Below are positions 37,323 through 55,200 of a stretch of DNA of 64,000 nt, in pieces. This DNA is from Runella defluvii. GTDB lineage: Bacteria > Bacteroidota > Bacteroidia > Cytophagales > Spirosomataceae. Location of the stretch: positions 434,001 to 498,000 of the forward strand of contig NZ_JACIBY010000006.1 of the NCBI RefSeq assembly GCF_014195535.1. The letters run 5' to 3'. Below the pieces are notes generated by a model, which saw only the letters and a program-made list of their open reading frames with translations, searched no databases and was not told the origin of the DNA. A program made the position numbers and the translations under genes. The stretch's first letter is position 1; the number at the start of each line of letters is the position of its first letter.

Positions 37323-40300
37323 ATGATGAACAGTTTCCCTTCTGTAGGGCGAGTTTTACTCGCTCGTCAGTTTGCTGTCCTTGGTAAAATCGCCATGACA
37401 GTTTTGTTCACAGTGGTCTTCTTGGGAGTCCAAGCTCAGGAAAGACAAGTCACTGGTAAAGTAAAAGATGGAACAGGCACAGGAATGCCAGGTGTAACAG
37501 TTGCAGTAAAAGGAACTCAACGCGGTACGAGTACAGATGTTGATGGAAATTACAAAGTTGCCGTTCCTACAAACGCGACACTCGTATTTAGCTACGTAGG
37601 TTACTCAAACCAAGAAATTGCGGTTGGTACCCGCTCAGTTGTCGATGTAACTCTTCTCGAAGACAACAAAGTCCTGAATGAAGTAGTGGTAGTAGGTTAT
37701 GGTACAGTCAAGAAAAAAGATGCGACTGGTGCTGTAAACGCTATTGGTGCAAAAGACTTCCAAAAAGGGATTGTAGTATCACCCGAACAATTGATGCAAG
37801 GACGCGTAGCTGGGGTGCAAATCACTCAGTCAAGCGGTGAGCCAGGTGGTGGCATCAACGTTCGTATCCGTGGTACGTCTTCCGTATTTGGTGGTAACAA
37901 CCCATTGTTTGTTATCGACGGAGTACCTTTGGCAGGTGACAATACCTCATCTGGTGGAGATGCTTCGGGGGTTGGTCGTCAGCCAGCTAAAAACCCATTG
38001 AACTTCTTGAACCCAGAAGACATTGCAAGCATCGACATCTTGAAAGATGCTTCGGCAACGGCAATCTACGGTTCACGTGGTGCTAACGGGGTAGTTTTGA
38101 TTACAACGAAAAAAGGAAAAGGTAAAGGTACGCTTGAGTACGGTTACTCACTTGGAGCAAGTAGTCTTACAAAGCGTTATGATTTGCTAAATGCCGATGA
38201 ATACCGTGCAGCGGGTGGTCAAGATCAAAAAGGTAATACTGACTGGCAAAAAGAATTGTTCAGAACTGGTTACACTAACCAACACAACTTTGCCTTCGGA
38301 GCTGGCGATAACAACGGAAGCTACCGCTTTACGTTGGGTTATTTGAACCAACAGGGGATTATCAAAGAGTCAGAAATCAAGCGTTACAGCTTAGGCTTCA
38401 ATGGTTCTAAGAAATTCCTTAATGACCGTTTGACGATTGCGAGTAACATCAACATTTCAAACAACCAAGACGCTAACGTACCTATCTCAGAGAACATTGG
38501 TTTTGAAGGAGACCTTTTAGGTAACATCTTGAAAGCTAACCCAACTCGCCCTGTTTACAACAGCGACGGTACGTTCAACCAACCAGGTAACACTGAACCT
38601 AACCCGTTGGCAATGATTGTATTGTCTCAAGACAACACAAACACGCTTCGCGCTTTGGGTAACATCAATGCTGAATTACAAATTGTGAAGAACTTGAAAT
38701 TCAAAACAGTAATTGGTTTTGACAAGTCATTCTCTTCAAGAAAATCAGCTTATTCTCGTGACCTCGTGTTGACAGGTGTTGACAAACTCGGCCGTGCTTA
38801 CGTTGCGGATATCGAAACTGACAACAAATTGTGGGAAAACTACTTCACATACGACAAAGAGTTTAACAAAATCACATTCAATGCGTTGTTAGGTTATTCG
38901 TATCAGATGTTCAGCCGCTACTCAAAAAATATTGCAGCTGCTAACTTCCGTACCAGCGACTTAGATTTGATGATCAACAACATCGCATCAGCAAATGCTG
39001 GTAAATTTGGTAGCAACGTTATCAACAACTCTGGTTCAGAAACTGACGAATTGCAATCATATTTCGGACGTGTAAACGTAGGTATCAATGACAAATATTT
39101 GTTAACAGCTACTTTGCGTTCAGACGGTTCTACGAAATTCGGGGGCAACAACAAATATGGTTTCTTCCCATCTTTCGCTGCTAAGTGGAAAATCATGAAC
39201 GAAAGCTTCGCTCCTAAGAATATCTTCGATGACTTATCGGTTCGTTTGGGCTATGGTTTGACAGGTAACCAATCAATTCCTCACAACGTCTATGACCGTC
39301 GTGACCGTTACAGTGGCTGGGGAATCAACCAGGGTGGTGATAACATCGAAGGTGGTGGTTTGAACGCCGTAGCATTTAACAACCCTAACTTGAAATGGGA
39401 AACAACGTCATCTATCAACTTAGGTTTGGATTTTGCTATCTTGAAAAACCGTCTTTCTGGAACGATTGATTTCTATCAGAAAAACACCAAAGACCTCTTG
39501 TTCTACGTTATTTCAGCACAACCTGCTCCTACGCCATTTACGTGGAAAAACTTGGATACTGACATCCAAAACCGTGGGTTAGAAATTTCATTGACAGGTT
39601 CGGTGGTTGACCAAACTAACTTTAGTTGGGAAGTATTGTTAAACGCTGGTTTCAACAAAAACATGGTTAAAAACCTTAATGGGGTATTTGACACGGGTGA
39701 AATCAACGGTCAAGGTTTGACAGGTGCGTTTGCACAACGTATCGCAGCTGGTCAGCCTTTGTTTGCTTATTTCTTGCGTGACTTCGGCGGATATGATGAA
39801 AACGGGAACTCGCTTTATCCGAATGGTGACTACCAACAATTCTTGAATGGTAAAAGCCCACTTCCAACTGCTACTGGTGGTTTGACAAACAACTTGCGTT
39901 ACAAAAACTGGGATTTGAGCTTGTTCTTCAACGGCGTATTTGGTAACTACCTTTACTCAAATACTGAAAATGCGTTCTTTACAAAAGGATCATTTGCAAA
40001 CGGACGTAACGTGACTAAGAATGTGGTAACAAGCAAAGAAGGTCCATTGAACGCTCCAGACGTTTCAACTCGTTTCTTGCAAAAAGGTGATTTTGTTCGT
40101 TTACAAAACTTGAACTTGAGCTACCGTGTACCAGTAAGTGGTAAAACTATTTCAAACTTGCGCGTATTCTTGACAGGTCAAAACTTGATGACCTTCACTA
40201 AGTACACTGGTCAAGATCCAGAAGTAAGCACCAACAAGTCTATCAACGGTATTCCATCGTTTGGTATCGACTACACTGCTTACCCAAGAGCTAGAACTTG

Positions 40301-40328
40301 GACCATTGGTGCTAACATTTCGTTCTAA
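37323..40328 (+). CDS. SusC/RagA-family TonB-dependent outer-membrane transporter
   Basis: A 1001-residue outer-membrane importer. Signal peptide to about residue 38 (FLGVQAQ). Residues about 42-115 are the carboxypeptidase-regulatory-like domain (VTGKVKDGTGTGMPGVTVAV, VDGNYKVAVP). NEVVVVGYGTVKKKDATGAV marks the junction to the plug (RVAGVQITQSSGEPGGGINV, ILKDASATAIYGSRGANGVV). The rest is the 22-strand barrel, ending RARTWTIGANISF with a terminal Phe. It works with the SusD protein next door, taking up oligosaccharides or similar ligands. Codons are strongly biased to GGT, CGT, AAC and TTC compared with downstream genes, suggesting high expression. Confidence 0.96.
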   Translation: MMNSFPSVGRVLLARQFAVLGKIAMTVLFTVVFLGVQAQERQVTGKVKDGTGTGMPGVTVAVKGTQRGTSTDVDGNYKVAVPTNATLVFSYVGYSNQEIAVGTRSVVDVTLLEDNKVLNEVVVVGYGTVKKKDATGAVNAIGAKDFQKGIVVSPEQLMQGRVAGVQITQSSGEPGGGINVRIRGTSSVFGGNNPLFVIDGVPLAGDNTSSGGDASGVGRQPAKNPLNFLNPEDIASIDILKDASATAIYGSRGANGVVLITTKKGKGKGTLEYGYSLGASSLTKRYDLLNADEYRAAGGQDQKGNTDWQKELFRTGYTNQHNFAFGAGDNNGSYRFTLGYLNQQGIIKESEIKRYSLGFNGSKKFLNDRLTIASNINISNNQDANVPISENIGFEGDLLGNILKANPTRPVYNSDGTFNQPGNTEPNPLAMIVLSQDNTNTLRALGNINAELQIVKNLKFKTVIGFDKSFSSRKSAYSRDLVLTGVDKLGRAYVADIETDNKLWENYFTYDKEFNKITFNALLGYSYQMFSRYSKNIAAANFRTSDLDLMINNIASANAGKFGSNVINNSGSETDELQSYFGRVNVGINDKYLLTATLRSDGSTKFGGNNKYGFFPSFAAKWKIMNESFAPKNIFDDLSVRLGYGLTGNQSIPHNVYDRRDRYSGWGINQGGDNIEGGGLNAVAFNNPNLKWETTSSINLGLDFAILKNRLSGTIDFYQKNTKDLLFYVISAQPAPTPFTWKNLDTDIQNRGLEISLTGSVVDQTNFSWEVLLNAGFNKNMVKNLNGVFDTGEINGQGLTGAFAQRIAAGQPLFAYFLRDFGGYDENGNSLYPNGDYQQFLNGKSPLPTATGGLTNNLRYKNWDLSLFFNGVFGNYLYSNTENAFFTKGSFANGRNVTKNVVTSKEGPLNAPDVSTRFLQKGDFVRLQNLNLSYRVPVSGKTISNLRVFLTGQNLMTFTKYTGQDPEVSTNKSINGIPSFGIDYTAYPRARTWTIGANISF

Positions 40329-40351
40329 GAACTAACAAAAAACTAAACAAA

Positions 40352-41848
40352 ATGAAGACTAATAAATACATAGTAAGAACTTTGATAGTTGGGCTAGGCT
40401 TAACTACCATCACTTCTTGTACTGATTTAGTAAATAACGAAAAAGATTCTATCGTCAGACAGTCTGAAGGTGGTACTCCTGTAGCAGGAGACCCTGTTGG
40501 TCTATTGGAATCTGCTTACAAAGACCTAGGGTTTTATACTGACCAAGCCAATGCTTACGCTTTGGGTATGCACACTTCAGCCGAAATGATTCCTCCTACA
40601 CGTGGGGTTGACTGGGGTGATAACGGGGTTTGGCGTACGCTTGACCAACATACTTGGGATGCGACCCACCAACAAGTTCGTGATACTTGGAATAGCTTGA
40701 ACTCTCGCGTGTTTAAAACCACCGAAATCTTGGCTTCTACGACCGCAACAGCGGCTCAGAAAGCAGAAGCTAAGTTCTTGCGTGCCTGGAATATGTATCA
40801 CGTGATGGACTTCTATGGTCAAGTTCCTTTCAGAGAGTTTACACAAGGGGTTGACGATCTTCCTCGCGTAATGACTCGCTCAGAAGCATTCGACTTTATC
40901 GTAAAAGATTTGGAAGAAGCACTTCCCGTATTGGTAAAAGCAGGCCCATCAGCATCAAACGGTGTGGCTAACAAAGCAGCTGCCAACTTCTTACTTGCTA
41001 AGTTGTATTTGAATAAGGCAGTTTACAAAGCTTCGACTCCAGCAGGTCCATATACATTTGATAAAGCAGATATGGACAAAGTATCAACGTATGTTAATGC
41101 TATCACTGCCGACGGATACAAGCTTGATACTGATTACTTTAATGCCTTTACAAAAAATGGCAACTCAGAAACCATTTTCGTGAGCTTGGAAGGTACACCT
41201 CAGAACCGTTGGTTTATGACGTTGCACTACAGTCAAAACCCATCTGGATGGAACGGTTTTACGACCTTGGCTGACTTCTACGATAAGTTCGAGAAAGATG
41301 ATCCACGTATCGGTAAGGCCGCAAAAGGCGATGGTACTGAGTTCTCTGGTATCGGTTACGGTTTCTTGATTGGCAAACAAGTGGATGATAAAGGTAAAGA
41401 CCTTATTGACTCACGTACGCAAAAAGTACTTTCGTTCACTCGTGACGTACCTTTGGCAGGTGCAGCTACCGATAAAGGTATCCGCGCTATCAAGTACCAC
41501 CCTGCAACAGCTGGTAAGTACATCTTGATGCGTTATGCTGAAGCACTAATGATGAAAGCAGAAGCTCAACTCCGTGGTGGTGACGCTGCTGGTGCGTTGG
41601 TAACTGTAAACTCTATCAGAACTGCCCGCAAAGCAAAAGCACTTGCCTCAATCAACACAGACGGTATGTTCGACGAAATCGGTCGCGAATTGTACTGGGA
41701 AGGTGGCAAACGTACGGTAGAAGTTCGCTACGGTAAGTTTACTACAGGTGCTGGTGCTGACAACAAAGAAGCCTACACTGTATTGTTCCCAATCCCTGCT
41801 ATCGCGCTTGTTTCTAACCCTAACTTGAAGCAAAATCAAGGGTATTAA
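40352..41848 (+). CDS. SusD/RagB-family surface lipoprotein
   Basis: A 498-residue lipoprotein (GLGLTTITSCTDLVNNEKD, cysteine 23 by count) that forms the lid on the SusC channel and binds the ligand. The SusD_RagB order is present: AEMIPPTRGVDWGDNG near the start, TPR-like helices such as KAEAKFLRAWNMYHVMDFYG and YVNAITADGYKLDTDY, then YILMRYAEALMMKAEAQLRGG and IGRELYWEGGKRTVEVRYGK, closing with LFPIPAIALVSNPNLKQNQGY. The gap from SusC is 23 bases. A hairpin follows, which would limit transcription into the next genes. Confidence 0.95.
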   Translation: MKTNKYIVRTLIVGLGLTTITSCTDLVNNEKDSIVRQSEGGTPVAGDPVGLLESAYKDLGFYTDQANAYALGMHTSAEMIPPTRGVDWGDNGVWRTLDQHTWDATHQQVRDTWNSLNSRVFKTTEILASTTATAAQKAEAKFLRAWNMYHVMDFYGQVPFREFTQGVDDLPRVMTRSEAFDFIVKDLEEALPVLVKAGPSASNGVANKAAANFLLAKLYLNKAVYKASTPAGPYTFDKADMDKVSTYVNAITADGYKLDTDYFNAFTKNGNSETIFVSLEGTPQNRWFMTLHYSQNPSGWNGFTTLADFYDKFEKDDPRIGKAAKGDGTEFSGIGYGFLIGKQVDDKGKDLIDSRTQKVLSFTRDVPLAGAATDKGIRAIKYHPATAGKYILMRYAEALMMKAEAQLRGGDAAGALVTVNSIRTARKAKALASINTDGMFDEIGRELYWEGGKRTVEVRYGKFTTGAGADNKEAYTVLFPIPAIALVSNPNLKQNQGY

Positions 41849-41873
41849 TCCGCTTTAGTAGTTATAAATTCAA

Positions 41874-41910
41874 AGAAAAATGCTCGAATCACATCGGGCA
41901 TTTTTCTTTT
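41874..41910 (+). terminator. Terminator-like hairpin after SusD
   Basis: The stem AGAAAAATGCTCGA / TCGGGCATTTTTCT (one mismatch) with a small loop ATCACA is followed by TTT. It lies between SusD and the next plus-strand gene, where partial termination would make SusCD more abundant than the genes downstream. Confidence 0.7.
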
Positions 41911-41927
41911 AGTGACTTTCCCCACCT

Positions 41928-42509
41928 ATGATAGCAGCACGTACATTATCTTTTTATTTTATTCTTTTTTTGTTCGGAAGCTCCGTGTCGAGCTGTACCA
42001 GTTCTTCAACTTCAAAAAACCCTTCCGACATACTCGCTACCTTGAAAGAAGGCGAAGCTAAAGTATGGCTCACCATTGATAATCAGCCATTTTATAGCGA
42101 CAGCAGTGTTTTTAAAGGAGAGATAACGGCTTTTGACCACGCGTTCCGCATCAATATCACCGATCAATTTCAGGGAAACACCGTGATTGCTATCGGCGGC
42201 GACCAATGGTTTGCCACCAAACCCATCACCAAAGCCGTTGATACCAACAACCAGACCCAAGCCAGCGCCATGATTGGACGCATGACCGACCCCGTCAATC
42301 GTCGCGGTTTAGGATACATTATGACATCGGGCGAAATAACGCTCGATGCACTATCCGAAGAAAAAGCTATTTTACGACTCAAAGGCCAAGTGGGAGAATA
42401 CACCACCATGGGAAACCCTGCGACGTGGAAACCCGTAGAAGGACTCATTGTCTATAAAAAGCCCCTTTTAAAAGTCCAAGGGCTCACGCCTCAGCAACTT
42501 TACTTTTAA
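41928..42509 (+). CDS. Lipoprotein of unknown function in the SusCD cluster
   Basis: A 193-residue protein with lipoprotein signal FGSSVSSCTSSS (cysteine 23 by count) followed by a Ser/Thr-rich stretch. The mature part has beta-rich segments: KVWLTIDNQPFYSDSSVFKG, AFRINITDQFQGNTVIAIGG, GYIMTSGEITLDAL and AILRLKGQVGEYT. It reads like a small beta-sandwich. I recognise no family. It sits 23 bases before the first VCBS gene and about 80 bases after SusD, so it probably belongs to the same uptake system. Confidence 0.7.
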   Translation: MIAARTLSFYFILFLFGSSVSSCTSSSTSKNPSDILATLKEGEAKVWLTIDNQPFYSDSSVFKGEITAFDHAFRINITDQFQGNTVIAIGGDQWFATKPITKAVDTNNQTQASAMIGRMTDPVNRRGLGYIMTSGEITLDALSEEKAILRLKGQVGEYTTMGNPATWKPVEGLIVYKKPLLKVQGLTPQQLYF

Positions 42510-42532: not shown

Positions 42533-45500
42533 ATGCGTCATTCTCGTCTATATATCTGCCTTAGTTTATTCGCCATTGGTTTCACAAGCTGCCAACGTGA
42601 AGATGCTACCGAAGGGCTTTTTGAATCGGTAACCAATTCGGGTATTGATTTTGAAAATAAGGTAACCAACAATGAAAACTTCAATATCTTCAATTACCGC
42701 AACTTCTACAACGGCGGTGGTGTAGGAATTGGCGACGTCAACAATGACGGGCTGCCCGATGTGTATATGACGTCGAACATGGGTGAAAATAAACTGTACC
42801 TCAACAAAGGCAATTTTAAATTTGAGGACATTACCCAAAAAGCAGGCGTTGCCGACGCAGGCAAGTGGAGCACAGGGGTGGTGATGGTGGACATTAACTA
42901 CGATGGTTTGTTGGATATTTATGTCTGTAATGCGGGCATCGACAAACGCATCAAAAACCAGGGTAATTCTCTTTATATCAACAATGGCGACATGACCTTC
43001 ACCGAAAAAGCCAAAGAATATGGCCTCGATGAAGATGGCTATACTACCCACGCAGCCTTTTTTGACTATGACCTCGACGGCGATTTAGATTGTTATATTT
43101 TGAACAATAGCTTTATTCCTGTCAATACCCTCAACTACGACAACAACCGCGACTTACGCGCCAAAGATTGGCCCGTCAAAGATTATCTGAAAGGTGGAGG
43201 GGATAAATTACTTAGAAACGACAACAACAAGTTTGTCGATGTCAGTGAGCAAGCAGGAATTTATGGAAGTTTGATTGGGTTTGGATTGGGCGTGACCGTC
43301 GGCGACCTTAACAATGATAACTACCCCGATATTTATATTTCAAATGACTTTTTTGAAAAAGATTATCTCTACATCAATCAACGCAACGGGACCTTTAAAG
43401 AAGAAATAGAAAAACGAATCGGGCATACCAGCTTGGCATCCATGGGGGCTGATTTTGCCGATATTAACAACGATGGCTACTCGGATATTTTTACGACCGA
43501 CATGCTTCCCATCGACGAAACCCGCCTTAAAAGCACCACTTCGTTTGAAAGCCACTACATCTTCAAACTCAAGCAACAAAAAGGGTTTTACAATCAGTTT
43601 ATGCAAAATGCCTTGCAACTCAACAACCAAGATGGTACTTACAGCGAGATTGCGTGTTTGAGCGGCGTTGAAGCCAGCGACTGGAGTTGGGGTGCACTGA
43701 TGTTTGATGCCGATAACGACATGAAAACCGATATTTATGTGTCCAACGGTATTTATAACGACGTCATCGACCAAGATTTTATTGACTTCTTTGCCGACGA
43801 AGTAGCCCAAACAATGGTGCTCTCGGGAGAGAAAAAGAGCTTTGATGCCATCATCAATCAAATGCCTTCACGCCCTATTGTCAACAATTTTTTCCATAAC
43901 AAAGGCAACCTCAAATTTGAAGAAGCCAGCAAAAGTTTTGGGTTTGGAACACCATCCTTTTCCAACGGAGCGGCGTATGCCGATTTGGACAATGACGGGG
44001 ATTTGGACTTGGTTGTCAACAACGTCAACCAAAAAGCGTTTGTGTATCGCAACAAAACCAACGAAAACAAAGAAGTTCACTACGTTAAGTTTAAGCTAAA
44101 AGGCGAAGGTAAAAACCGCGACGCCATCGGAACGCAATTAAAAGTCTATGTAAAAGACCAAATTTTAAGCAAAAACATCATGCCTGCGCGGGGCTTCCAG
44201 TCAAGTACCGAATATCCCGTAACTCTTGGGTTAGGTTCGATGACCAAAGTTGATTCCGTGACCATTACTTGGTACGATGGTCGCATCAGCAAACTTAACA
44301 ACCTTCCCGCTGACCGAACCCACGAACTGAGCATTGGTAGTGGCAAAAAGCTCCCCACTCCTACCCCTGTTGAGCGCTTGTCGCTCTATTTGGCAAAAAC
44401 TGAGGCTCCCTTCGATGCCCATAAGGAAAACGATTACGAAGATTTTTACCAAGAAAAAAACATTCCCGTCAAGCTCTCTAAGGAAGGCCCAAGGGCAGCC
44501 GTGGGAGACGTAAATAACGATGGCACCGACGACATTTACATTTGTGGAGCGGCCAACCAAGCAGGGCAATTGTACCTTCAAGTCAACGGTTCATTCAAAA
44601 AATCGGAACAACAGGTTTTTGAAGACTTTAAGTATTTTGAAGATACCGAAGCTGTATTTTTTGACGCCGACAAAGACGGTGACTTAGACTTATATATCGG
44701 GGCAGGAGGAAACGAACTCGACCCTAACCAACGAGGCTTAAACGACCGCTTGTATGCCAACGACGGCAAAGGCAATTTCTCCCTCGCCGCCAATGCCTTG
44801 CCGCCAAACGGCATGAATACCAGCGTTGTAATTCCGATGGATTACGACAAAGACGGTGACTTAGACTTGTTTGTCGGTAGCCGAAGTTTGCCCAAAACCT
44901 ACGGACTTTCTCCCATCAGTTACGTTTTTGAAAACCTTGGCAACCTCAAATTTAAAGACAGTACCCCCAAAAGCTTTCAAACCTTGGGGCTGATTCGAGA
45001 CGCCGTTTGGGATGACCTCAACGGGGATGGTAACAAAGAACTGACGGTGGTCGGTGATTGGATGAACCCCATGACTTTTGCGTACCAAAACGGGGCTTTT
45101 ACCCAAATCAACACAGGTTTAGAAGCGTACCAAGGCTTTTGGGGAAGAATCGAAGCGGTGGACATCGATAATGACAAAGATTTGGATTTGGTGCTGGGCA
45201 ACATCGGCGATAACTTCATGTTGCGCGCTTCCGAAAACAGCCCCATCAAAATTTGGGTAAGCGATTTTGACAACAATGGATTAACCGATAAAATCTTAAC
45301 CAAAACCGTTGAGGACGAAGATAGTCCCGTGCTACTGAAACGAGAAATGATGGAGCAGTTTCCGATTTTGAAAAAAGAAAGTTTGAAACACTCGGCTTAC
45401 GCAACCAAAAGGCTGAAGGATTTATTTACGTCCGATGTGCTTTCAAAAGCAACAGTCAAACAAGTAAACTACATGCACTCTGCCGTAGCCATCAACGACG

Positions 45501-45856
45501 GCAAAGGCAATTTTAGCCTATCAACACTCCCAGTGGAAGCCCAGATTTCGTGCATCAACGCGACCTACTGCGTCGATGTCAACAACGATGGATTGAAAGA
45601 TATTTTGCTCGGTGGCAACAACTACAACTTCATCCCTCAGTTTTCGCGTTTGGATGCTTTCAAGGGAAAAATCCTTATCAACAAAGGGAAAGGCGTTTTT
45701 GCCGCAGTATCCGACCACCTTTCGGGCTTTACTCCGCAAGGCGAAATGACCCAACTCAAACCCGTCAAGGTCAATGGCACGCCATACGTGATTGGTTTAT
45801 TGAACAATTCCATACCACAATTATTTAAAATCGAACAGCCCAAACCCACGCTATGA
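42533..45856 (+). CDS. VCBS/FG-GAP and ASPIC-UnbV (CRTAC1-like) lipoprotein, copy 1
   Basis: A 1107-residue lipoprotein (GFTSCQREDATEG, Cys20, followed by acidic residues as in the Bacteroidota surface export signal). Residues about 40-500 hold an FG-GAP propeller with calcium loops D-x-N-x-D-G-x-x-D (GDVNNDGLPD from residue 66, VDINYDGLLD, YDLDGDLD). The ASPIC/UnbV domain lies at about 520-605 (RDAIGTQLKVYV, ARGFQSSTEYPVTLGLG, VDSVTITWYDGR). A second propeller of the same kind follows to the end (GDVNNDGTDD, DADKDGDLDLYIGAGGNE, DYDKDGDLDLFVGSRS). Such proteins bind calcium and probably glycans or other proteins at the surface. Its stop overlaps the GH31 ATG by 4 bases. Confidence 0.92.
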   Translation: MRHSRLYICLSLFAIGFTSCQREDATEGLFESVTNSGIDFENKVTNNENFNIFNYRNFYNGGGVGIGDVNNDGLPDVYMTSNMGENKLYLNKGNFKFEDITQKAGVADAGKWSTGVVMVDINYDGLLDIYVCNAGIDKRIKNQGNSLYINNGDMTFTEKAKEYGLDEDGYTTHAAFFDYDLDGDLDCYILNNSFIPVNTLNYDNNRDLRAKDWPVKDYLKGGGDKLLRNDNNKFVDVSEQAGIYGSLIGFGLGVTVGDLNNDNYPDIYISNDFFEKDYLYINQRNGTFKEEIEKRIGHTSLASMGADFADINNDGYSDIFTTDMLPIDETRLKSTTSFESHYIFKLKQQKGFYNQFMQNALQLNNQDGTYSEIACLSGVEASDWSWGALMFDADNDMKTDIYVSNGIYNDVIDQDFIDFFADEVAQTMVLSGEKKSFDAIINQMPSRPIVNNFFHNKGNLKFEEASKSFGFGTPSFSNGAAYADLDNDGDLDLVVNNVNQKAFVYRNKTNENKEVHYVKFKLKGEGKNRDAIGTQLKVYVKDQILSKNIMPARGFQSSTEYPVTLGLGSMTKVDSVTITWYDGRISKLNNLPADRTHELSIGSGKKLPTPTPVERLSLYLAKTEAPFDAHKENDYEDFYQEKNIPVKLSKEGPRAAVGDVNNDGTDDIYICGAANQAGQLYLQVNGSFKKSEQQVFEDFKYFEDTEAVFFDADKDGDLDLYIGAGGNELDPNQRGLNDRLYANDGKGNFSLAANALPPNGMNTSVVIPMDYDKDGDLDLFVGSRSLPKTYGLSPISYVFENLGNLKFKDSTPKSFQTLGLIRDAVWDDLNGDGNKELTVVGDWMNPMTFAYQNGAFTQINTGLEAYQGFWGRIEAVDIDNDKDLDLVLGNIGDNFMLRASENSPIKIWVSDFDNNGLTDKILTKTVEDEDSPVLLKREMMEQFPILKKESLKHSAYATKRLKDLFTSDVLSKATVKQVNYMHSAVAINDGKGNFSLSTLPVEAQISCINATYCVDVNNDGLKDILLGGNNYNFIPQFSRLDAFKGKILINKGKGVFAAVSDHLSGFTPQGEMTQLKPVKVNGTPYVIGLLNNSIPQLFKIEQPKPTL

Positions 45857-48633
45857 GAAACAATGTGCGGACAGGAATGTGGAAATTTATTGGGGCAACA
45901 ATCGCGCTTATCGGGTGCTTTTCGTGGCCTATTTTAGCACAAAACGCAGGTAACTTACTTCGTTTTTCGGTTCTAAATACCGAACTTCGCTTAGTCGGTT
46001 CATCGGCCGAAGTGCGCGTGCAGGTCTTCTCGAACAACGTTTTTAAGGTAACGCAGTTTCCTTCCAACAGCGCTTTTCAAGATACATCCTACGCCGTCGT
46101 TGGTCAGCCGCTTTCGCTGCGCCAATTTCAGCTGGTAGAAACCCCAGCAACGCTGACGATTGTTACCCCTTCAAGCCAATTAGAAATCACCAAGTCCCCG
46201 ATTTCGATTGCGCTAAAATCAAACGGCAAAACCAAAATCAAACAAGACGTTTTTGGCTATAAAAACCAAAACGTTTCGATTTCCTTCGTTATTGACCCCA
46301 ACGAAATTTTTCACGGGACAGGCGGAAGGGTGTCTAAAGTAAACCTAACGGGCAAGGTTTCGGAATTTACCAACACCTTTCGTCCGTGGTACTTTGATGA
46401 TATTTATGGCCAAACCTTCGGCTTGGCTCAAAGCATCACCATTCCATTTTTTGTGGCGTCGGGGCAATACGGTCTCTTGCTCGACAGTCCGCTCCCTGGC
46501 GACATGCGGACTTATTTAGGCGCATTGGACTCTACCCGAATAGATGCCCAAATAAGCAGCCTAGGACTCTGGTCGTATTACCTTATCAACGGCGCCAACA
46601 ACGACGAAATTTTGTACGAATACACTGCCCTCACGGGACGGCAGCCGTTGGTGCCGCGTTGGGCATTGGGCTATCTCCAATCCAAAAGCAGCTACAGTAC
46701 CGAGCGCGAGTTAAACGATGTAATTACCAACTTACAGAGTCAGAGTTTCCCCTTGGATGCTGTCATCATCAATACCCCGTGGCAAGGCAATACCAACAAC
46801 CTTGGAAACATGAATTGGGGACAAACAGGCTTTCCGTCACCTGCCAACATGATGAAAAACTGGTTGGCAAAAGGTGTAAAAACAGTGGTAATGAACTCAC
46901 CCTACGTCAACAAAGCCTCTGCCAATTACCGTAGTTTGGATTCGCTTCGTCTTCTCACAAAAACACTTTCAGGAAGCACAGGTCTCCTCACCCAAGGCGG
47001 TGATACGACCAGTTTGCTGGACATTTTTCAAACCAATACCCAACAGTGGCTCGCCAGCAAACTAACCCCTCGAACAAACGACGGTATCGGCGGCTGGGCG
47101 AGTGTCGGGCTGGAGCCACCGCAACATCCCACGTTTTTTGTCCATAACAATACTAATCCCTCGACACAAGTCCATAATCTTTACTCACTGCTCTGGGCCA
47201 AAACCATTTATGACAACCACCGCGCGGCTTTTCCCGCCAGTCGCTTGTTCCATCTCACAAGCTCAGCTTGGACGGGCGCACAGCGGTACGGCGTTTTGCC
47301 TTGGACTGGCAACGTAGCTCGGTATTGGCTGGGGCTTACCCTCCAAATTCCGATGATGATTCACGCGGGCTACTCAGGTTTAGCCTATATGCACTCCGAC
47401 ATTGGGGGCTACGTGACTCCTTCCGACAAAGCGCCTAAAGACGAAGAAATGGACATGCGTTGGACGCAATTTGGGACTTTTTCGCCCATTATGCGCGTCA
47501 ATGGTGAGCGAAACGTTACCGAACCCTACATCCTGACGCAGCCTTTTTACAACAATACCCGTGCCGCGATAAAGCTTCGTTATCAGCTACTTCCGTACAT
47601 TTATAGCCTTGCCTATCAAACCACCACAACGGGGCGGCCTTTCTGCCTCTCGATGGACTACTTTGAACCATCCAATCGCCTAGCAAACATCGACGACCAG
47701 TTCTTTTTTGGAAAAAACCTACTCATAGCTCCCGTTATGATTCACGGAATGCTCGTGCGGAAAGTGCAACTACCCAATGGAAAATGGTTTGATTTTTGGT
47801 CTAAAAAATCTTATCAAGGTGGAGGTACTATTTTTGAAAATGTAGTCCTCGAAAATATCCCCGTGTATGTACCTGCGGGTGGTTTTGTCCCGATGGCGGT
47901 CAGTGCCAAGTCTTCGACCGATGCCTACGTTTCGGATAGTTTGGTTATCAAGTTTTTTCAAGATGTATCGGTACCTAACTCCGATTTTACCATTTTCCAC
48001 GACAAGGGCACGGAGGCAAACGTGCTTACAAACCAGAATTACGAGCTCCTCAAGCTGACAGGCAAATCCAAGACGGATACCATCGGTGTAACGCTCACCC
48101 GCACTCACACCTCCGCCCAAGGGCTCGGGAGTCGTTATATTTTGTTGGAAATAAAAAATGTAACGAACATTCCCAAAGCGGTGCTGCTCGATGGGCAAAC
48201 GATTCCCGTTCGTTTTGTAACAGATTCACCTCTAAAAGCCAAAACGGCCTACTATGATTTGGCCAATTTCCAATTGAGTATTCCCTTTGATTGGGATTGT
48301 AACAAGACCGCCTCGGCCCAAATCATTCGTACCGATTTGGGGATTCTCACCAGCGTTGTGACGCCAGCACAGGATGCCCTCGTTGTTTATCCCAACCCAG
48401 CACGGGACTTAGGCGCAGTAAACTTGCAAATCATCGCCCCTACAACCGACGATTATACCATTGAAGTGATTGATATACTAGGAACCCTGATTTACAAACA
48501 CACCCTCGGCAACTTGACCCAATACCAACAAACCCACCATAGCCTCCCCTCCGCACCTCAAAAGGGCATTTTTACCGTCCTGCTTAGAAATACAAAAGGG
48601 GAAGCGACCACAAAAAAAATGATGATTCTATGA
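45853..48633 (+). CDS. GH31-family protein with T9SS sorting tail; catalytic aspartates replaced
   Basis: A 926-residue secreted protein (signal to PILAQ). The GH31 layout is complete: N-terminal beta-sandwich, then the barrel with ALGYLQSKSSYSTERELNDV, LDAVIINTPWQG, GVKTVVMNSPYVN, SSAWTGAQRYGVLPW and YMHSDIGGY. In relatives the nucleophile is the Asp of G-W-W-x-D-L-G-E-P-E and the acid/base the Asp of P-W-T-G-D. Here these read GGWASVGLEPPQHP (Val418, with Glu421 nearby) and LPWTGNVARYW (Asn487). The spacing of 69 residues is normal. The last about 80 residues (VVYPNPARDLGAVNLQI to TTKKMMIL) are a type IX sorting domain. It may bind glycan without hydrolysis, or use other residues. Confidence 0.9.
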   Translation: MRNNVRTGMWKFIGATIALIGCFSWPILAQNAGNLLRFSVLNTELRLVGSSAEVRVQVFSNNVFKVTQFPSNSAFQDTSYAVVGQPLSLRQFQLVETPATLTIVTPSSQLEITKSPISIALKSNGKTKIKQDVFGYKNQNVSISFVIDPNEIFHGTGGRVSKVNLTGKVSEFTNTFRPWYFDDIYGQTFGLAQSITIPFFVASGQYGLLLDSPLPGDMRTYLGALDSTRIDAQISSLGLWSYYLINGANNDEILYEYTALTGRQPLVPRWALGYLQSKSSYSTERELNDVITNLQSQSFPLDAVIINTPWQGNTNNLGNMNWGQTGFPSPANMMKNWLAKGVKTVVMNSPYVNKASANYRSLDSLRLLTKTLSGSTGLLTQGGDTTSLLDIFQTNTQQWLASKLTPRTNDGIGGWASVGLEPPQHPTFFVHNNTNPSTQVHNLYSLLWAKTIYDNHRAAFPASRLFHLTSSAWTGAQRYGVLPWTGNVARYWLGLTLQIPMMIHAGYSGLAYMHSDIGGYVTPSDKAPKDEEMDMRWTQFGTFSPIMRVNGERNVTEPYILTQPFYNNTRAAIKLRYQLLPYIYSLAYQTTTTGRPFCLSMDYFEPSNRLANIDDQFFFGKNLLIAPVMIHGMLVRKVQLPNGKWFDFWSKKSYQGGGTIFENVVLENIPVYVPAGGFVPMAVSAKSSTDAYVSDSLVIKFFQDVSVPNSDFTIFHDKGTEANVLTNQNYELLKLTGKSKTDTIGVTLTRTHTSAQGLGSRYILLEIKNVTNIPKAVLLDGQTIPVRFVTDSPLKAKTAYYDLANFQLSIPFDWDCNKTASAQIIRTDLGILTSVVTPAQDALVVYPNPARDLGAVNLQIIAPTTDDYTIEVIDILGTLIYKHTLGNLTQYQQTHHSLPSAPQKGIFTVLLRNTKGEATTKKMMIL

Positions 48634-49835
48634 TACGCCAACGGTTATTGATAGCGATGGGAGTTTTGTGTAGCTTGGTCTATCTCATCGGCTGCGTGGA
48701 TGATTTCAATGCAGATATTTACACTTCTAAAGAATACTTGCTGGTAGATGGGACACTGACCGACTTGAACGAGCCACAGTACGTCTCCATTTTCAGTACG
48801 CCCAAAGATGCTTCGTTCAAAAGCTCCGATTTTACGTCCAAAATCTATCCAGCGCGGCAGTCTTATTTCCCTGAGCAGCAAGCCCTCGTCAAGCTGATTA
48901 TCAACCAGAAAGACGAAATCCAGCTAGAAGAACGGCTCGCGGGTTACTACTATTGTCCCACTGGTTTTCGGGCCAAAGCAGGAAATACGTACCAATTGCG
49001 GTTTCAGTTGGCCAACGGAAAAGTGTATGAAACCGATGTCGAGACGATGTATTCTGTTCCAGCCATCAAAAACGTATCGGAGGATTTTAACCTTACAGGG
49101 ATTCCCAATGCAGCAGGGTCGAGTGAAAAGATTTCGAGCAACGACATTTATGTTGATTTTGATGACGCCCCCAACGAAAAGAATTTTTACCGTTGGCGGT
49201 GGGTCAATTGGGAAATTCAGCGCATTTGTGCCACTTGCACCCAAGGGCGCTATTACTTATTTGAAACCGAACAGGGAGAAACAGGCGATTGCTACCGCGA
49301 CCTGACCTTAAAAGTCAACGACCGTTTTGATTATTACTGCGGAACGCGCTGTTGGGACATTTTTTACAGTTCGGACATCAACATTTTGTCGGATGTTTAT
49401 ACCAATGGCAAACCCCAGAAAAACAGGTTAGCCGCCCAAATCCCCCTTCGGCAGTCGAACCCTTGTTTGGTAAGTCTCCAGCAAATGTCCTTGTCACCAA
49501 ACACGTATCGTTACCTAAAATTACTCCAAGACCAATCCGTCAATACAGGAACTTTGGCCGATACGCCTCCTGCGCCTTTGCGAGGAAATATCCGAAACGT
49601 AAAAGACGCCAATGAATTGGTATTGGGCTATTTTTCTGCCTCTTCGGTGAGCGAAGTACGCGTGATGCTCGACCGCCGAAATACCACGGGAGGGCTTCCA
49701 AATGGACTTTATAGCTTTATCAACAACCGCCCCGTTACGCTCGAAGAACTCTCAAACGAGCGTCCTGATGTTCCGTTGGCCATTTGTCAACCAAGTTTTA
49801 CCCGCACACCTGTTACCCCCCTTGGCTGGCGATGA
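48630..49835 (+). CDS. DUF4249 lipoprotein
   Basis: A 401-residue lipoprotein (VYLIGCVDDFNADIYTSKEY, Cys22, acidic residues after it). The DUF4249 pattern is present: LLVDGTLTDLNEPQYVSIFS near the start, then beta-rich segments, a Cys-rich central part (RICATCTQGRYY, YYCGTRCWDIFYSSDI) and SLQQMSLSPNTYRYLKLLQD near the end. DUF4249 proteins are regularly encoded beside TonB-dependent receptors and may play a SusD-like part for them. Both neighbours overlap it by 4 bases, which implies coupled translation. Confidence 0.88.
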   Translation: MIRQRLLIAMGVLCSLVYLIGCVDDFNADIYTSKEYLLVDGTLTDLNEPQYVSIFSTPKDASFKSSDFTSKIYPARQSYFPEQQALVKLIINQKDEIQLEERLAGYYYCPTGFRAKAGNTYQLRFQLANGKVYETDVETMYSVPAIKNVSEDFNLTGIPNAAGSSEKISSNDIYVDFDDAPNEKNFYRWRWVNWEIQRICATCTQGRYYLFETEQGETGDCYRDLTLKVNDRFDYYCGTRCWDIFYSSDINILSDVYTNGKPQKNRLAAQIPLRQSNPCLVSLQQMSLSPNTYRYLKLLQDQSVNTGTLADTPPAPLRGNIRNVKDANELVLGYFSASSVSEVRVMLDRRNTTGGLPNGLYSFINNRPVTLEELSNERPDVPLAICQPSFTRTPVTPLGWR

Positions 49836-52225
49836 AAAAAACACTTTACTTAGTATTGGGATGGTTTTTGAGCGCCTCTGCCGCTTTGGGTCAAATATAC
49901 ACCATCAGTGGAACGGTTTTGGACTCCATTAGCAAGCAACCGCTCGCGGGTGCCACCGTCATCCTCGACCACAACCGCAGCAAAGGAGCGACCAAAACCG
50001 ACGAAAAAGGCGAGTTTACCCTGACCGTTGACCGTCAAAGTCACGTCGTAGCGATACGTTATGTGGGGTACGTGCCTTATTCCAAGTATTTTCCGCCAAT
50101 GACCCGCAGCCTGAAAATAACTGTGCTGTTGGATAAAACCGAAAATCAACTGGAGGAAGTTGTAATTACGACCAAAGGGTTTGACCAAACCATTCGGCAA
50201 CCGATTTTGGGGGTGAATCAAATCAACATCAAGACCTTCCAAAAACTTCCCTCGGCCTTTGGGGAAGTGGATTTATTGCGCGGAATTCAGATGCTTCCAG
50301 GCGTTACGAGCGTGGGAGAAGCCTCCAACGGGGTCAATATTCGAGGCGGAACCACCGACCAAAATTTGATCCTCTTAGACGATACGCCCATTTTTAACCC
50401 TACGCACATGTTTGGGTTGTTTTCGGTGTTTCCACCCGATGCCGTTTCTACCTTGGATTTGTACAAGGGCAACGTGCCAGGTCGCTACGGCGGGCGCGCG
50501 GCTTCTGTGCTTGACATCAAACTCCGCAATCCTACCTTAGACAGCCTCAAAATCAAGGGAGGTGTCAGCATTGTGTCCAACCGACTCATGGTCAATGTCC
50601 CCGTTGTCAAAGACAAACTTGGGTTTTATGTGGCGGCGCGGGGCGCGTTCAATGATTTTTTGTTGCCAATTGCTTCCGACAAACTCAAAGACATCAAAGC
50701 AAAGTTCGGCGAAGGCGTTTGGAAAGGATTTTGGAAAATTAACCCTAAAAACACCCTGACGGGCACGTTTTACAAAAGCTACGACCTTTTTAGCACCAAT
50801 CTCCTCCCAGGGCTTCCCAACGTGATTGGTGAATTTACCCGTTACCAGCATACTTCTACCAATGCTATGGCACGCTGGTTGACGGTGATTTCGCCCAAAA
50901 TGGACATTCAAACCACGGCCGTTTACGCCCATTATACCCCACAAATTTCCACCCAAGAAAAAGACACCGACAACTTCGTCGATTTGAATTCGGCCCTGAC
51001 GCAGAAACAACTCAAGTCTAACCTAAACTATGTATTGACCAACTACAAGCTAGAAACGGGGCTTAGTTTTACGCGTTACGATATTCAACCTGGCGAGCTA
51101 GTCCCCAATAACAGCGCCAGTGTGAGTAACATCGTCACGCCTTCCGAACGCGCTAACGAATGGGCGTGGCACGCCGATAATGAATACAGTTTCAGCAAAC
51201 AACTGGCGCTTTCGATAGGGATTCGTTATTCGTATTTTCAAACATTGGGGCCTGCCCTTTACCGAAATTACGAAGCAGGCCAACCCCGCGACGACTTCTC
51301 CGTGATAGACTCCGTACAAGCGGGTCACAACAAAGTGTTTAGTCACTACGGCGGTTTTGAGCCTAGGGTCGGGATTCGGTATGCCCTAAACGAACGGACA
51401 TCGTTTAAGTTTGGGTACAACCTCATGCGTCAATATTTGCAGATTGTTTCCAATACCACCACGCCGATTCCTACGTCGCGTTGGAAAACGAGCGACTTAC
51501 ACATCAAACCCCAAATCAGCAATTTACTTTCGGCAGGCTACTACCATTCGTTCGATAACGACATCTATGAGATTTCGGTGGAAGGCTACTATCGATTCAC
51601 CCGAAACATGGTGGACTACAAACCTGGTGCCGATTTTTTGCTCCAACCCTACCCCGAAACGCAGATTGTCCAAGGTTTGAGCAAGGCTTACGGGCTCGAA
51701 GTCATGTTGACCAAGAAAAAAGGGCGGCTCAACGGCTGGGTCAATTATACCTATTCGCGCACCTTTAACCGCACCTACACCGACCTCCCTTCGATTGAAC
51801 AAGTCAACAACGGGCATTGGTACCGCGCCAATTATGACCGACCACACAGCGTCAATACCTCGTTCGACATTAGCATTGACAAACACAATTCGTTTAGTTT
51901 TACGTTTATTTATAGCACAGGGCGACCTTACACACAGCCCGTGGGTTTTGTCAATTACCTCAACAATTTCTTTCCGTTTTATGAAGCACGTAACAACAAA
52001 CGCGTACCTGATTATCACCGTTTGGACTTTGCTTGGAACATTTACAACCCCAGCATGAAAGACCGTCGCTTCCGAGGAAAATGGGCCTTTACGGTCTATA
52101 ATTTGTACGCCCGTCGGAATGTGTATTCGGTCTTTTTCAAAACCGAAAAGAACATTAGCCAAGCAAAACGTTTGCAGATTTTTGGCGCGCCTATTGTTAG
52201 TTTAGCCTATAATTTTGAATTTTGA
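49832..52225 (+). CDS. TonB-dependent receptor with carboxypeptidase-regulatory-like domain
   Basis: A 797-residue outer-membrane receptor. The ATG of MKKTLYLVLGWFLSASAALG is used: it overlaps the DUF4249 stop (ATGA) and gives a signal peptide, unlike the ATG 48 bases upstream. Residues about 22-100 are the regulatory-like domain (YTISGTVLDSISKQPLAGAT, TDEKGEFTL). The plug follows (EVDLLRGIQMLPGVTSVGEA, GVNIRGGTTDQNLILLDDTP). The barrel ends with AKRLQIFGAPIVSLAYNFEF. It differs from SusC proteins in size and is typical of the DUF4249-linked receptors. The ligand is unknown. Confidence 0.93.
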   Translation: MKKTLYLVLGWFLSASAALGQIYTISGTVLDSISKQPLAGATVILDHNRSKGATKTDEKGEFTLTVDRQSHVVAIRYVGYVPYSKYFPPMTRSLKITVLLDKTENQLEEVVITTKGFDQTIRQPILGVNQINIKTFQKLPSAFGEVDLLRGIQMLPGVTSVGEASNGVNIRGGTTDQNLILLDDTPIFNPTHMFGLFSVFPPDAVSTLDLYKGNVPGRYGGRAASVLDIKLRNPTLDSLKIKGGVSIVSNRLMVNVPVVKDKLGFYVAARGAFNDFLLPIASDKLKDIKAKFGEGVWKGFWKINPKNTLTGTFYKSYDLFSTNLLPGLPNVIGEFTRYQHTSTNAMARWLTVISPKMDIQTTAVYAHYTPQISTQEKDTDNFVDLNSALTQKQLKSNLNYVLTNYKLETGLSFTRYDIQPGELVPNNSASVSNIVTPSERANEWAWHADNEYSFSKQLALSIGIRYSYFQTLGPALYRNYEAGQPRDDFSVIDSVQAGHNKVFSHYGGFEPRVGIRYALNERTSFKFGYNLMRQYLQIVSNTTTPIPTSRWKTSDLHIKPQISNLLSAGYYHSFDNDIYEISVEGYYRFTRNMVDYKPGADFLLQPYPETQIVQGLSKAYGLEVMLTKKKGRLNGWVNYTYSRTFNRTYTDLPSIEQVNNGHWYRANYDRPHSVNTSFDISIDKHNSFSFTFIYSTGRPYTQPVGFVNYLNNFFPFYEARNNKRVPDYHRLDFAWNIYNPSMKDRRFRGKWAFTVYNLYARRNVYSVFFKTEKNISQAKRLQIFGAPIVSLAYNFEF

Positions 52226-55200
52226 TGATGTCTAATTCAACCCTTTTATATCGTTTTTCTGCCCTTTGTTTCGTTACCTACGCGGCCTATGTTTTTGTGG
52301 GCTGTCAATCATCGAGCGAGCCCAAACCGCCTGCCCAATTCCGATTACTAGACGCTTCCGAAACAGGCATTGAGTTTGCCAATACCCTCAAAGCGGATAG
52401 CAAGCTCAATATTTTCAACTACATGTACTTCTACAACGGAAGCGGCGTAGGAGCGGGCGATTTCAACAACGACGGGCTCGTTGATTTGTGCTTTACGGGA
52501 AACCTGTCGGACAACAAACTGTACCTCAATCGGGGCAAGATGAAGTTTGAAGACGTCACCGCTCAAACCAACATCAACCAAAACAAGGCATGGGCCAACG
52601 GCGTGTCGGTAGTGGACATCAACCAAGACGGAAAGCTGGACATTTACATCAGCCAAGTAGGCGGAATCCCGAGTTTGGACGGGCGAAATTTGTTGTTTGT
52701 TTGCAAAGAAATTACGGCAAAAGGAGTCCCAGTTTACGAAGAAAAAGCCAAAGAATATGGCCTCGATTTGAAAGGGCTGGGCACGCAAGCTGCCTTTTTT
52801 GACTACGATTTAGACGGTGATTTGGACTTTTTTCAGCTTAATCATTCCGTCCACCAAAACGGTACATTTGGCTTTCGTTCGGCTTTTCAAGGAACACCGC
52901 ACCCCACGGCAGGCGATAAATTTTTCCGCAACGACAATGGCAAATTTGTGGAAGTTACGCAGCAAGCGCACATCATCGACGACGTGCTGGGTTACGGCTT
53001 GGGCGTAGGCATTGGCGATGTCAACCTCGACGGTTATCCTGACATGTACATCGGGAACGATTTTCACGAAAACGACTACCTCTACCTCAATCAGCGCAAT
53101 GGCTCGTTTGCCGAAGATTCTGAGCGGCAGATTATGCACACGAGTCAGTTTTCGATGGGTATCGACATCGGCGATTTGAACAACGACCTCCTTCCCGAGA
53201 TTATCTCGCTCGACATGCTTCCCAACGACAAAGAAATTTTGAAGCGTTCGGAAGGGGAAGATTCGTACAACATTTTTAAGTACAAAATCCGCCAAGGCTA
53301 CAGCTATCAATTTGCCCGAAATAACCTCCAACTCAACCGAAATGGCCTTTTTTCAGAAATGGGAATGTACGCGGGCGTACACGCCACCGACTGGTCGTGG
53401 TCGCCGCTGATGATGGATTTTGACAACGACGGGAAGAAAGACATTTTCATTTCAAACGGTATTCCCAAACGGATGAACGACATCGACTACATTCAGTTTG
53501 TGTCGGACGAAGCGATTCAGCAAAAAATGAACAAGGGCGAATTTAACGAAGATGACCCCGACGTGGTGGATATTTTGCCCGAAATCAAACTTCCCAATAA
53601 GTTTTACCACAATACCCAAAATCTTCAATTTGCTGATTGGCAAAACACCATTGAAAACGATAAGCCTTCGTTCTCTAACGGTGCGATTTATGCCGACTTG
53701 GACAACGACGGCGACCTCGACGTGATTGCCAACAACATCAACGACAAGGCATTTATCTACGAAAATCTTTCGACAACCAACGAGTCGATTACCCTTCAGA
53801 TCGAAGGAAAAACGGGCAACCGCAACGCGATTGGGGCTAAGTGTTTAGTATTCCGAAAAGGGGAAGTGATTAGCTACGAGAAGTTTCCCGTGCGTGGTTT
53901 TCAGTCGAGCGCTGAGATTCCGTTGGTGGTAGGCGTGGGCAAAATAGACGAAGTGGATTCGCTGCTTTTTGTTTGGCCTAACCAAACCTACCAAGTATTG
54001 CGTAAAGGCGAGTTGAAAAAACAGCTTACACTCGTCCAAAGCGAAAACCTGCCCCGTTTTGATTACCAACGTTTACAAAAACTACTGACGCCCAAAGTTC
54101 CTTTTGAAGACAAAACGACGGCATTAACCCTTGACTTTGTCCACCAAGAAAACAATTTTAACGAACTTGACCGCGAAGCACTCATTCCGCATTTGGCCTC
54201 ATCGGCAGGGCCTGCGGTAGCGATAGCCGATATTAACCACGACGGGCTTGAAGACATTTTCTTGGGCAATGCCCGCGATGCCCTCAGCAAAGTGTATCTC
54301 CAAAATGCCAACGGTAAATTTCAGAATTTGCCCCAACCTACCCTCGAAAAAGACCTGATTTACGAGGATGTGGACGCCCAGTGGGCCGATGTCAACGGCG
54401 ACAAACACCTTGATTTGGTGGTGGCAAGCGGCGGAAATGAGTTTTTTGGTAAAACGTATCAACTCCAGCCACGGGTGTATTTGAACAATGGCCGTGGCCA
54501 ACTGACCCGCAAAGAAGATGCCTTCAAAGACCTCTACGTAACGGCTTCGTGCGTGCGTGCGTTCGATTTTACGGGCGACGGAGCGGTGGATTTGTTCATC
54601 GGTGGACGCTCCATTCCCAAAGCCTACGGCGACAATCCTACTTCGTATTTGCTCGTGAATGATGGCAAAGGAAACTTTACGGACAAAACAACGCAACTCG
54701 CCCCCGAACTGCGCACCATCGGAATGGTGACCAATGTAGAACTGGTGGATTTGAACAAAGACCAACGCCTTGATTTGCTATTGTCCATCGAGTGGAAATC
54801 CCTAACGGTTTTTCACCAAAACAACGGGCGGTTTGAAAAAGCAATACCCCTTGGAAGCAACCAGAAAGGCTGGTGGAATTTTACGTTGACGCATGATTTT
54901 GACCAAGACGGTGATTTGGATATTTTGGCAGGCAATTTGGGGTTAAATAGCCGCATCAAAGCCGCTGAAAAAGAACCTGTTCGGCTGTACGTAGGTGACA
55001 TTGACAAAAACGATCGCGTTGACCAGATTTTGACCTACTACCTCAACGGCGAAGAAACGCTCTTTGCCAATAAAATGGAAACCGACAAGCAGTTTCCCTA
55101 CATCAAAAAAGAATACATCCACGCCCGCGATTTTGCCAAAACGTCGGTAGAAAACCTGTTTGGAAAAGACAAATTGAGCAAAATGGCCGTGTTAGAAGCC

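Follow-up and report, generated by a model that had tools for sequence, protein, structure and literature searches.

A GH31-Fold Protein Lacking Both Catalytic Aspartates Beside a DUF4249/TonB-Receptor Pair in Runella defluvii

We examined a 64,000-nucleotide stretch of the Runella defluvii genome (hereafter the window; contig NZ_JACIBY010000006.1, positions 434,001 to 498,000), in which a 926-residue protein with the fold of glycoside hydrolase family 31 (GH31) is encoded directly ahead of a DUF4249 protein and a TonB-dependent receptor (table 1). Its kinship with GH31 is plain: Pfam recognizes the barrel, at 229.9 bits against a cut-off of 23.5, together with the N- and C-terminal beta domains, and the AlphaFold model (mean predicted local distance difference test, pLDDT, 87.8; predicted template modelling score, pTM, 0.84) reaches 91, 72, and 85 in the 10-residue blocks near the active-site motifs (residues 411-420, 421-430, and 481-490, respectively). 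The top Foldseek match, Protein Data Bank (PDB) entry 5npc, superposes with a template modelling (TM) score of 0.95 by target length and a root-mean-square deviation (rmsd) of 2.1 at 28% identity, and belongs to CjAgd31B, the nearest solved relative both by sequence (phmmer E about 1e-112) and by fold. The protein also carries export signals. The C-terminal sorting domain of the type IX secretion system (T9SS), claimed by an earlier reading made from the sequence alone, is recovered as Por_Secre_tail by Pfam (29.4 bits, cut-off 27) and as a T9SS type A sorting domain by NCBIfam (29.1 bits, cut-off 23), the signal peptide being recognizable by eye; SprA, the sole T9SS component searched for, is encoded in the genome (PF14349, E 5.9e-138).

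Table 1. Features of the GH31-fold gene and its neighbours (window coordinates)
Feature	Position	Strand	Basis
SusC, SusD, and 193-residue protein	37323..42509	+	Pfam, locus comparison
FG-GAP / UnbV-ASPIC protein (FG-GAP1), upstream; ATGA overlap with GH31	42533..45856	+	Pfam
GH31-fold protein without both catalytic Asp, 926 residues	45853..48633	+	open reading frame, Pfam, phmmer, Foldseek
Hydrophobic N-terminal signal peptide, residues 1-30	45853..45942	+	sequence, judged by eye
PF13802, N-terminal galactose-mutarotase-like domain, residues 54-213	46012..46491	+	Pfam
PF01055, GH31 TIM barrel, residues 265-586, E 6.7e-68	46645..47610	+	Pfam
N307, conserved Asp position	46771..46773	+	alignment
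A416, at the Trp two residues ahead of the nucleophile	47098..47100	+	alignment
V418, nucleophile position	47104..47106	+	phmmer, MAFFT, Foldseek
S470, conserved Arg ahead of the acid/base	47260..47262	+	alignment
N487, acid/base position, on the D of the PW[ST]GD motif	47311..47313	+	phmmer, MAFFT
N550, substrate-site His position	47500..47502	+	alignment
PF21365, GH31 C-terminal domain, residues 602-676	47656..47880	+	Pfam
PF18962 Por_Secre_tail, T9SS C-terminal sorting domain, residues 845-925	48385..48627	+	Pfam, NCBIfam
DUF4249 protein; ATGA overlap with GH31	48630..49835	+	Pfam, locus comparison
TonB-dependent receptor, CarbopepD_reg domain; start codon ATG at 49832, overlapping the DUF4249 stop	49832..52225	+	Pfam
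Second FG-GAP / UnbV protein; start overlapped by the receptor stop	52222..55587	+	Pfam

What sets this protein apart is its active site. The sequence-only reading had placed Val418 at the nucleophile and Asn487 at the acid/base position, with the HP and SDIGG motifs and the motif spacing retained. All of this is confirmed by alignment: phmmer and a MAFFT alignment of 70 rows (24 orthologs, see below, and 46 other GH31 proteins) agree on both positions, and the column of Val418 holds Asn in 5npc, titled "D412N nucleophile mutant cjAgd31B", and Asp in the unmutated chain, so that the crystallographers' own mutation marks the nucleophile site. The structure prediction and comparison with characterized GH31 enzymes that the same reading had proposed thus gave the fold of CjAgd31B with no acid at either catalytic position. 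Given this agreement of phmmer, MAFFT, and the crystal chain, misalignment is ruled out, as are a sequencing error or a one-strain accident, since the loss is common to four genomes. Beyond the aspartate pair, N307, A416, S470, and N550, none of them mentioned earlier, replace further conserved residues of the −1 sugar site, D516 being kept. Asn occupies column 307 in five of the 24 orthologs, with Asp in the other 19 and in all 46 other GH31 rows; Arg fills column 470 in 20 orthologs and 45 of the 46, and His column 550 in 11 orthologs and again 45 of the 46. In CtGII, Asp443, Trp554, Asp662, and His691 are described as recognizing the −1 glucose in PMC9061262, and we equate them, by motif and spacing rather than direct alignment, with positions 307, 416, 516, and 550. 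The sequence strongly supports the view that the protein has lost GH31 catalysis of the ordinary kind. Because the defining features of the enzymes, an Asp nucleophile with an Asp acid/base and a conserved −1 site, were looked for and found replaced, the protein is on its sequence a GH31-fold homologue and ought not to be listed among the GH31 enzymes.

The loss is neither confined to R. defluvii nor general among its relatives. Searches of 222 genomes of the family, with at most four candidates per genome, gave 24 full-length orthologs at 42-100% identity, the window included, after which the score falls from 796 to 207 bits among the matches listed. Profile searches of 390 genomes of the order and 395 of the class, with at most two candidates per genome, gave no match among those listed between the orthologs, which there scored 1457 or more, and about 700 bits. 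The Asp pair is missing in 12 of the 24. Val or Ile at 418 combined with N487 occurs in the window, in R. limosa (L012), in genome G165 (L013), and in the metagenome-assembled genome G167 (L014), and N307, A416, S470, N487, and N550 are identical in all four. Six further rows (L020-L024 and L027), here called Glu-type, have a Glu nucleophile and Ala for the substrate-site His with the acid/base Asp kept, and on this pattern are possibly half-lost or altered enzymes; L017 carries Thr and L034 His at the acid/base. Por_Secre_tail was found in 20 of the 24 orthologs, a count over the set as a whole. Within the signal peptide of the four Runella proteins lies a lipobox-like LIGC at residues 19-22 (LIAC in L014), a motif not seen by eye in the other 20; a lipoprotein anchor combined with a T9SS tail would be odd. 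Outside the ortholog clade, only L095 (genome G848) among the 46 GH31 rows lacks the Asp pair. It and L158, from another family of the class, have a Gln nucleophile and a Glu acid/base, with the Arg, His, Asp516, and Glu421 positions also changed, and their locus gave no DUF4249 match in the stretch fetched.

Replacements in the four Runella rows concentrate at the sugar site. In alignment A2, which comprises 19 of the 24 orthologs (L021, L022, L024, L027, and L032 are left out, L020 and L023 representing the six Glu-type rows) and 20 other rows, 82 columns are identical in at least 28 of 29 intact rows, and all four Runella rows change 11 of them: six of the seven sugar-site columns against five of the 75 other near-invariant columns (p 8.7e-6), the seven sites having been chosen after the alignment was viewed, which brings some circularity into the test. 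With 418 and 487 removed, the figures are four of five against five of 75 (p 3.8e-4) for the Runella four, three of five for L017 (p 0.0012) and L034 (p 0.028), and four of five for L095 (p 6e-4). The enrichment is not significant in the Glu-type pair (p 0.056; one of five without 418 and 487, p 0.23) or in L031 (p 0.31), which keeps the Asp pair and was placed with the eroded rows. As the intact rows were defined by this pair, their zero counts follow by construction.

A tree of 33 rows (the 24 orthologs and nine outgroups), built with ten trait columns masked, groups the four Runella proteins with 100/100 support and joins to them, at 99/99, the pair formed by R. zeae (L015) and Runella sp. 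MFBS21 (L016), both intact. From its sequence placement, then, the Val/Ile-and-Asn form arose after the split from this pair; the conserved inactive GH31 of the sequence-only reading is thus borne out in part, for four related genomes, its conservation reaching back no further than that split. Across the tree at least four changes of state are needed for the Asp pair and at least five for the His column, and loss is the natural direction because all nine outgroup rows are intact. L031, with Ser for His, is sister to the Glu group, a placement which suggests that His went first in that line. These counts stand on a tree in which no branch sets the chosen outgroup apart from the other rows and for which the program warned that long branches meet, among them those of the 24-row clade and of the L078 group in the outgroup. 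The stem of the Runella four is long in the GH31 tree (0.75, vs. 0.21 in the intact sister) and less so in DUF4249 (0.32 vs. 0.26) and the receptor (0.40 vs. 0.22), and the nonsynonymous rate (dN) of GH31 exceeds that of both partners in all nine pairs compared. By the Nei-Gojobori method, the ratio of nonsynonymous to synonymous rates (dN/dS) of the window gene is 0.081 against L012, 0.113 against L013, and 0.083 against L014, inside the range of intact pairs (0.114, 0.080, and 0.051) and below the Glu-type pairs (0.118 and 0.148), which argues that the gene was maintained after the loss. The earlier statement that it is not decaying is thus upheld by purifying selection (dN/dS 0.08-0.11) and by a full-length frame in four genomes.

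The neighbours of the gene are as constant as its active site is not. GH31, DUF4249, and TonB receptor follow one another in this order in all 24 ortholog loci, and 4-base ATGA overlaps link FG-GAP1 to GH31, GH31 to DUF4249, and DUF4249 to the receptor in the window, L012, L013, and L014. When the 222 family genomes were searched for DUF4249, the 24 best matches were the very genes that adjoin these 24 GH31 genes, and 14 outgroup GH31 loci gave no DUF4249 match at E 1e-4, two of them (L161 and L162) carrying genes that resemble SusC and SusD at about 30% identity. The SusCD context stressed by the sequence-only reading holds in part: in 10 of the 24 loci, the window included, SusC, SusD, the 193-residue protein, and FG-GAP1 precede the gene (stretches of up to 20 kb), and the constant partners are instead DUF4249 and the receptor. 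The 193-residue protein (41928-42509), between SusD and FG-GAP1, is less conserved than its neighbours and has no Pfam or NCBIfam match. A third large FG-GAP-type protein (55659-59180) was assigned by similarity, and none of the three proteins of this type (42533-45856, 52222-55587, and 55659-59180) has an NCBIfam match.

In Bacteroides thetaiotaomicron, BT2172 (the receptor) and BT2173 (DUF4249) are reported in PMC11003636 to function together, disruption of either having similar consequences. It is possible that DUF4249 forms the lid of the transporter encoded by the next gene, an idea taken from the title of a preprint cited there. A SusD-like fold for DUF4249 found no backing in structure, the top Foldseek match of its model (mean pLDDT 72.3) having a meaningless rmsd of 19.8.

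The gene has lost catalytic and substrate-site residues, is under purifying selection, and keeps the same neighbours. We consider that it probably derives from a GH31 enzyme and now serves, without catalysis, as a binding partner of an uptake system of the DUF4249 type. The pseudoenzyme idea of the sequence-only reading gains from the further substrate-site losses, the purifying selection, and the recurrent loss in relatives, to the extent that sequences can speak to it. The ancestor would have been an Agd31B-like enzyme with the usual Asp pair, which became tied to the DUF4249 and receptor module; in one Runella lineage the −1 sugar site would then have been dismantled, with fold, export signals, and operon place kept. 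The sorting tail and the SprA gene point to export to the cell surface by the T9SS, where the protein would bind its ligand, which is probably a glycan or a glycoconjugate, and may pass it to the receptor together with the DUF4249 partner. Several observations weigh against this proposal. The gene is present in only six of 13 genomes of the genus, its own included; 12 of the 24 orthologs, half of the clade, retain both aspartates, so that catalysis has not become worthless throughout it; the ligand could be something other than a glycan; and no SusD appears among the best 50 Foldseek matches of the DUF4249 model, although the confidence of that model is modest. Moreover, none of 14 further DUF4249 loci without a GH31 ortholog has a GH31 match in the stretch fetched, so that GH31 is dispensable to the DUF4249/receptor pair. 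In 13 of these 14, DUF4249 lies directly 5' of the receptor. At locus L177 the two genes stand in reversed order with a 520-residue open reading frame in between. FG-GAP-type relatives occur near the pair in L167-L174; inspection of the 14 stretches by eye, without Pfam, showed no consistent replacement gene upstream of DUF4249, each stretch covering up to 20 kb and two or more being cut short by contig ends. GH31 presence takes one change on the DUF4249 tree and two on the receptor tree, and a single gain is therefore not settled. A broader proposal, which we advance only tentatively, is that within this operon the active site was dismantled repeatedly and stepwise, in at least four lineages, with the His going before the nucleophile in one line, to give catalysis-free receptors, an enzyme-to-receptor series within one orthologous gene.

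Of the other explanations, the most plausible is that the GH31 shell serves as a structural or regulatory subunit holding the DUF4249, receptor, and FG-GAP proteins together, its old pocket empty of ligand. The constant gene order suits this, as does a trend, without statistical test, in where residues are kept: among the four Runella proteins, identical columns make up as large a fraction of the N-terminal domain (183/221) as of the barrel (250/321), whereas the barrel is ahead in two intact sets (125/220 vs. 208/321; 92/216 vs. 188/321) and in the six Glu-type rows (150/216 vs. 252/321). Against it, the four proteins share all five replacement residues (N307, A416, S470, N487, and N550), a sign that the pocket may be maintained, but one weakened by the identity of 77% of all columns (687/896) in these rows. 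On balance we regard a purely structural role as unlikely.

That the protein is still an enzyme, another residue or substrate-assisted catalysis standing in for the Asp pair, seems to us less probable still. In its favour, E421 and D516 are kept, the barrel is modelled at good confidence, and 13 acidic residues have been gained in the four Runella proteins. The use of Glu421, raised by the sequence-only reading, finds no support because this is an ordinary residue of the family: all 24 orthologs have it, including the 12 that retain a normal Asp pair, as do 45 of the 46 other GH31 rows, each of those 45 with the pair intact. No replacement carboxylate was seen in the sequences. As for the gained acids, 384 and 410 fall within the Pfam barrel, 256 just before it, and the rest outside; by DSSP on the model they are predicted in a helix (256), at a strand start (384), and at a helix end (410), none of them at the pocket-forming strand ends, so that rescue by a gained acid at a pocket position finds no candidate on the modelled secondary structure. 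The sugar site, besides, has also lost its Arg, its His, and another Asp. Least credible of all, and in our judgement highly improbable, is that activity was lost neutrally in a gene entering decay: the long stem branch, the partial erosion in other lineages, and the seven of 13 genus genomes without the gene would agree with this, but the open frame is full-length in all four genomes, dN/dS is about 0.1 with synonymous divergence (dS) of up to 1.4, and the ATGA overlaps are kept in all four.

A binding partner that retains the GH31 fold, as we propose, has consequences for annotation. Its barrel score, far above the Pfam cut-off, would place it among the GH31 hydrolases, and tallies of enzymes in uptake loci can err through proteins of this kind. 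A literature search, judged by titles and abstract openings, turned up no inactive bacterial GH31, and nothing on GH31 with Runella. In this clade, orthologs that are intact, half-lost, or fully lost all lie next to the same two partner genes, which allows tests both of the change from enzyme to receptor and of the cargo of the DUF4249-type transporter.

Among known proteins the closest is CjAgd31B, a GH31 oligosaccharide 4-alpha-D-glucosyltransferase (alpha-transglucosylase; PDB 4b9y, 5i23, and 5npc), which agrees with the Runella protein in fold (TM 0.95 by target length, rmsd 2.0-2.1) and in motif spacing at 28% identity; the Runella protein differs from it in the nucleophile (D to V), the acid/base (D to N), and further D to N, R to S, and H to N changes, as well as in its T9SS tail and its operon with DUF4249 and a TonB receptor. 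The intact orthologs of R. zeae and MFBS21, at 50% identity, share the operon place and an aligned C-terminal tail, yet keep the Asp pair and the other five sugar-site residues, where the window protein differs. Non-catalytic relatives of glycoside hydrolases are familiar from the GH18 chitinase-like lectins, in which the glycosidase fold persists with catalysis lost; those belong to another family, whereas here the setting is a bacterial transporter operon with several parallel losses in one clade. In role, the parallel that we draw by analogy is with SusCD utilisomes: in two B. thetaiotaomicron systems, SusCD transporters are shown in PMC7618045 to carry surface glycoside hydrolases and glycan-binding proteins assembled upon them, and the window protein would likewise sit at the surface and be encoded alongside a TonB transporter and the partner of that transporter, differing in its GH31 fold, its T9SS tail, and in having DUF4249 rather than SusD as the constant partner.

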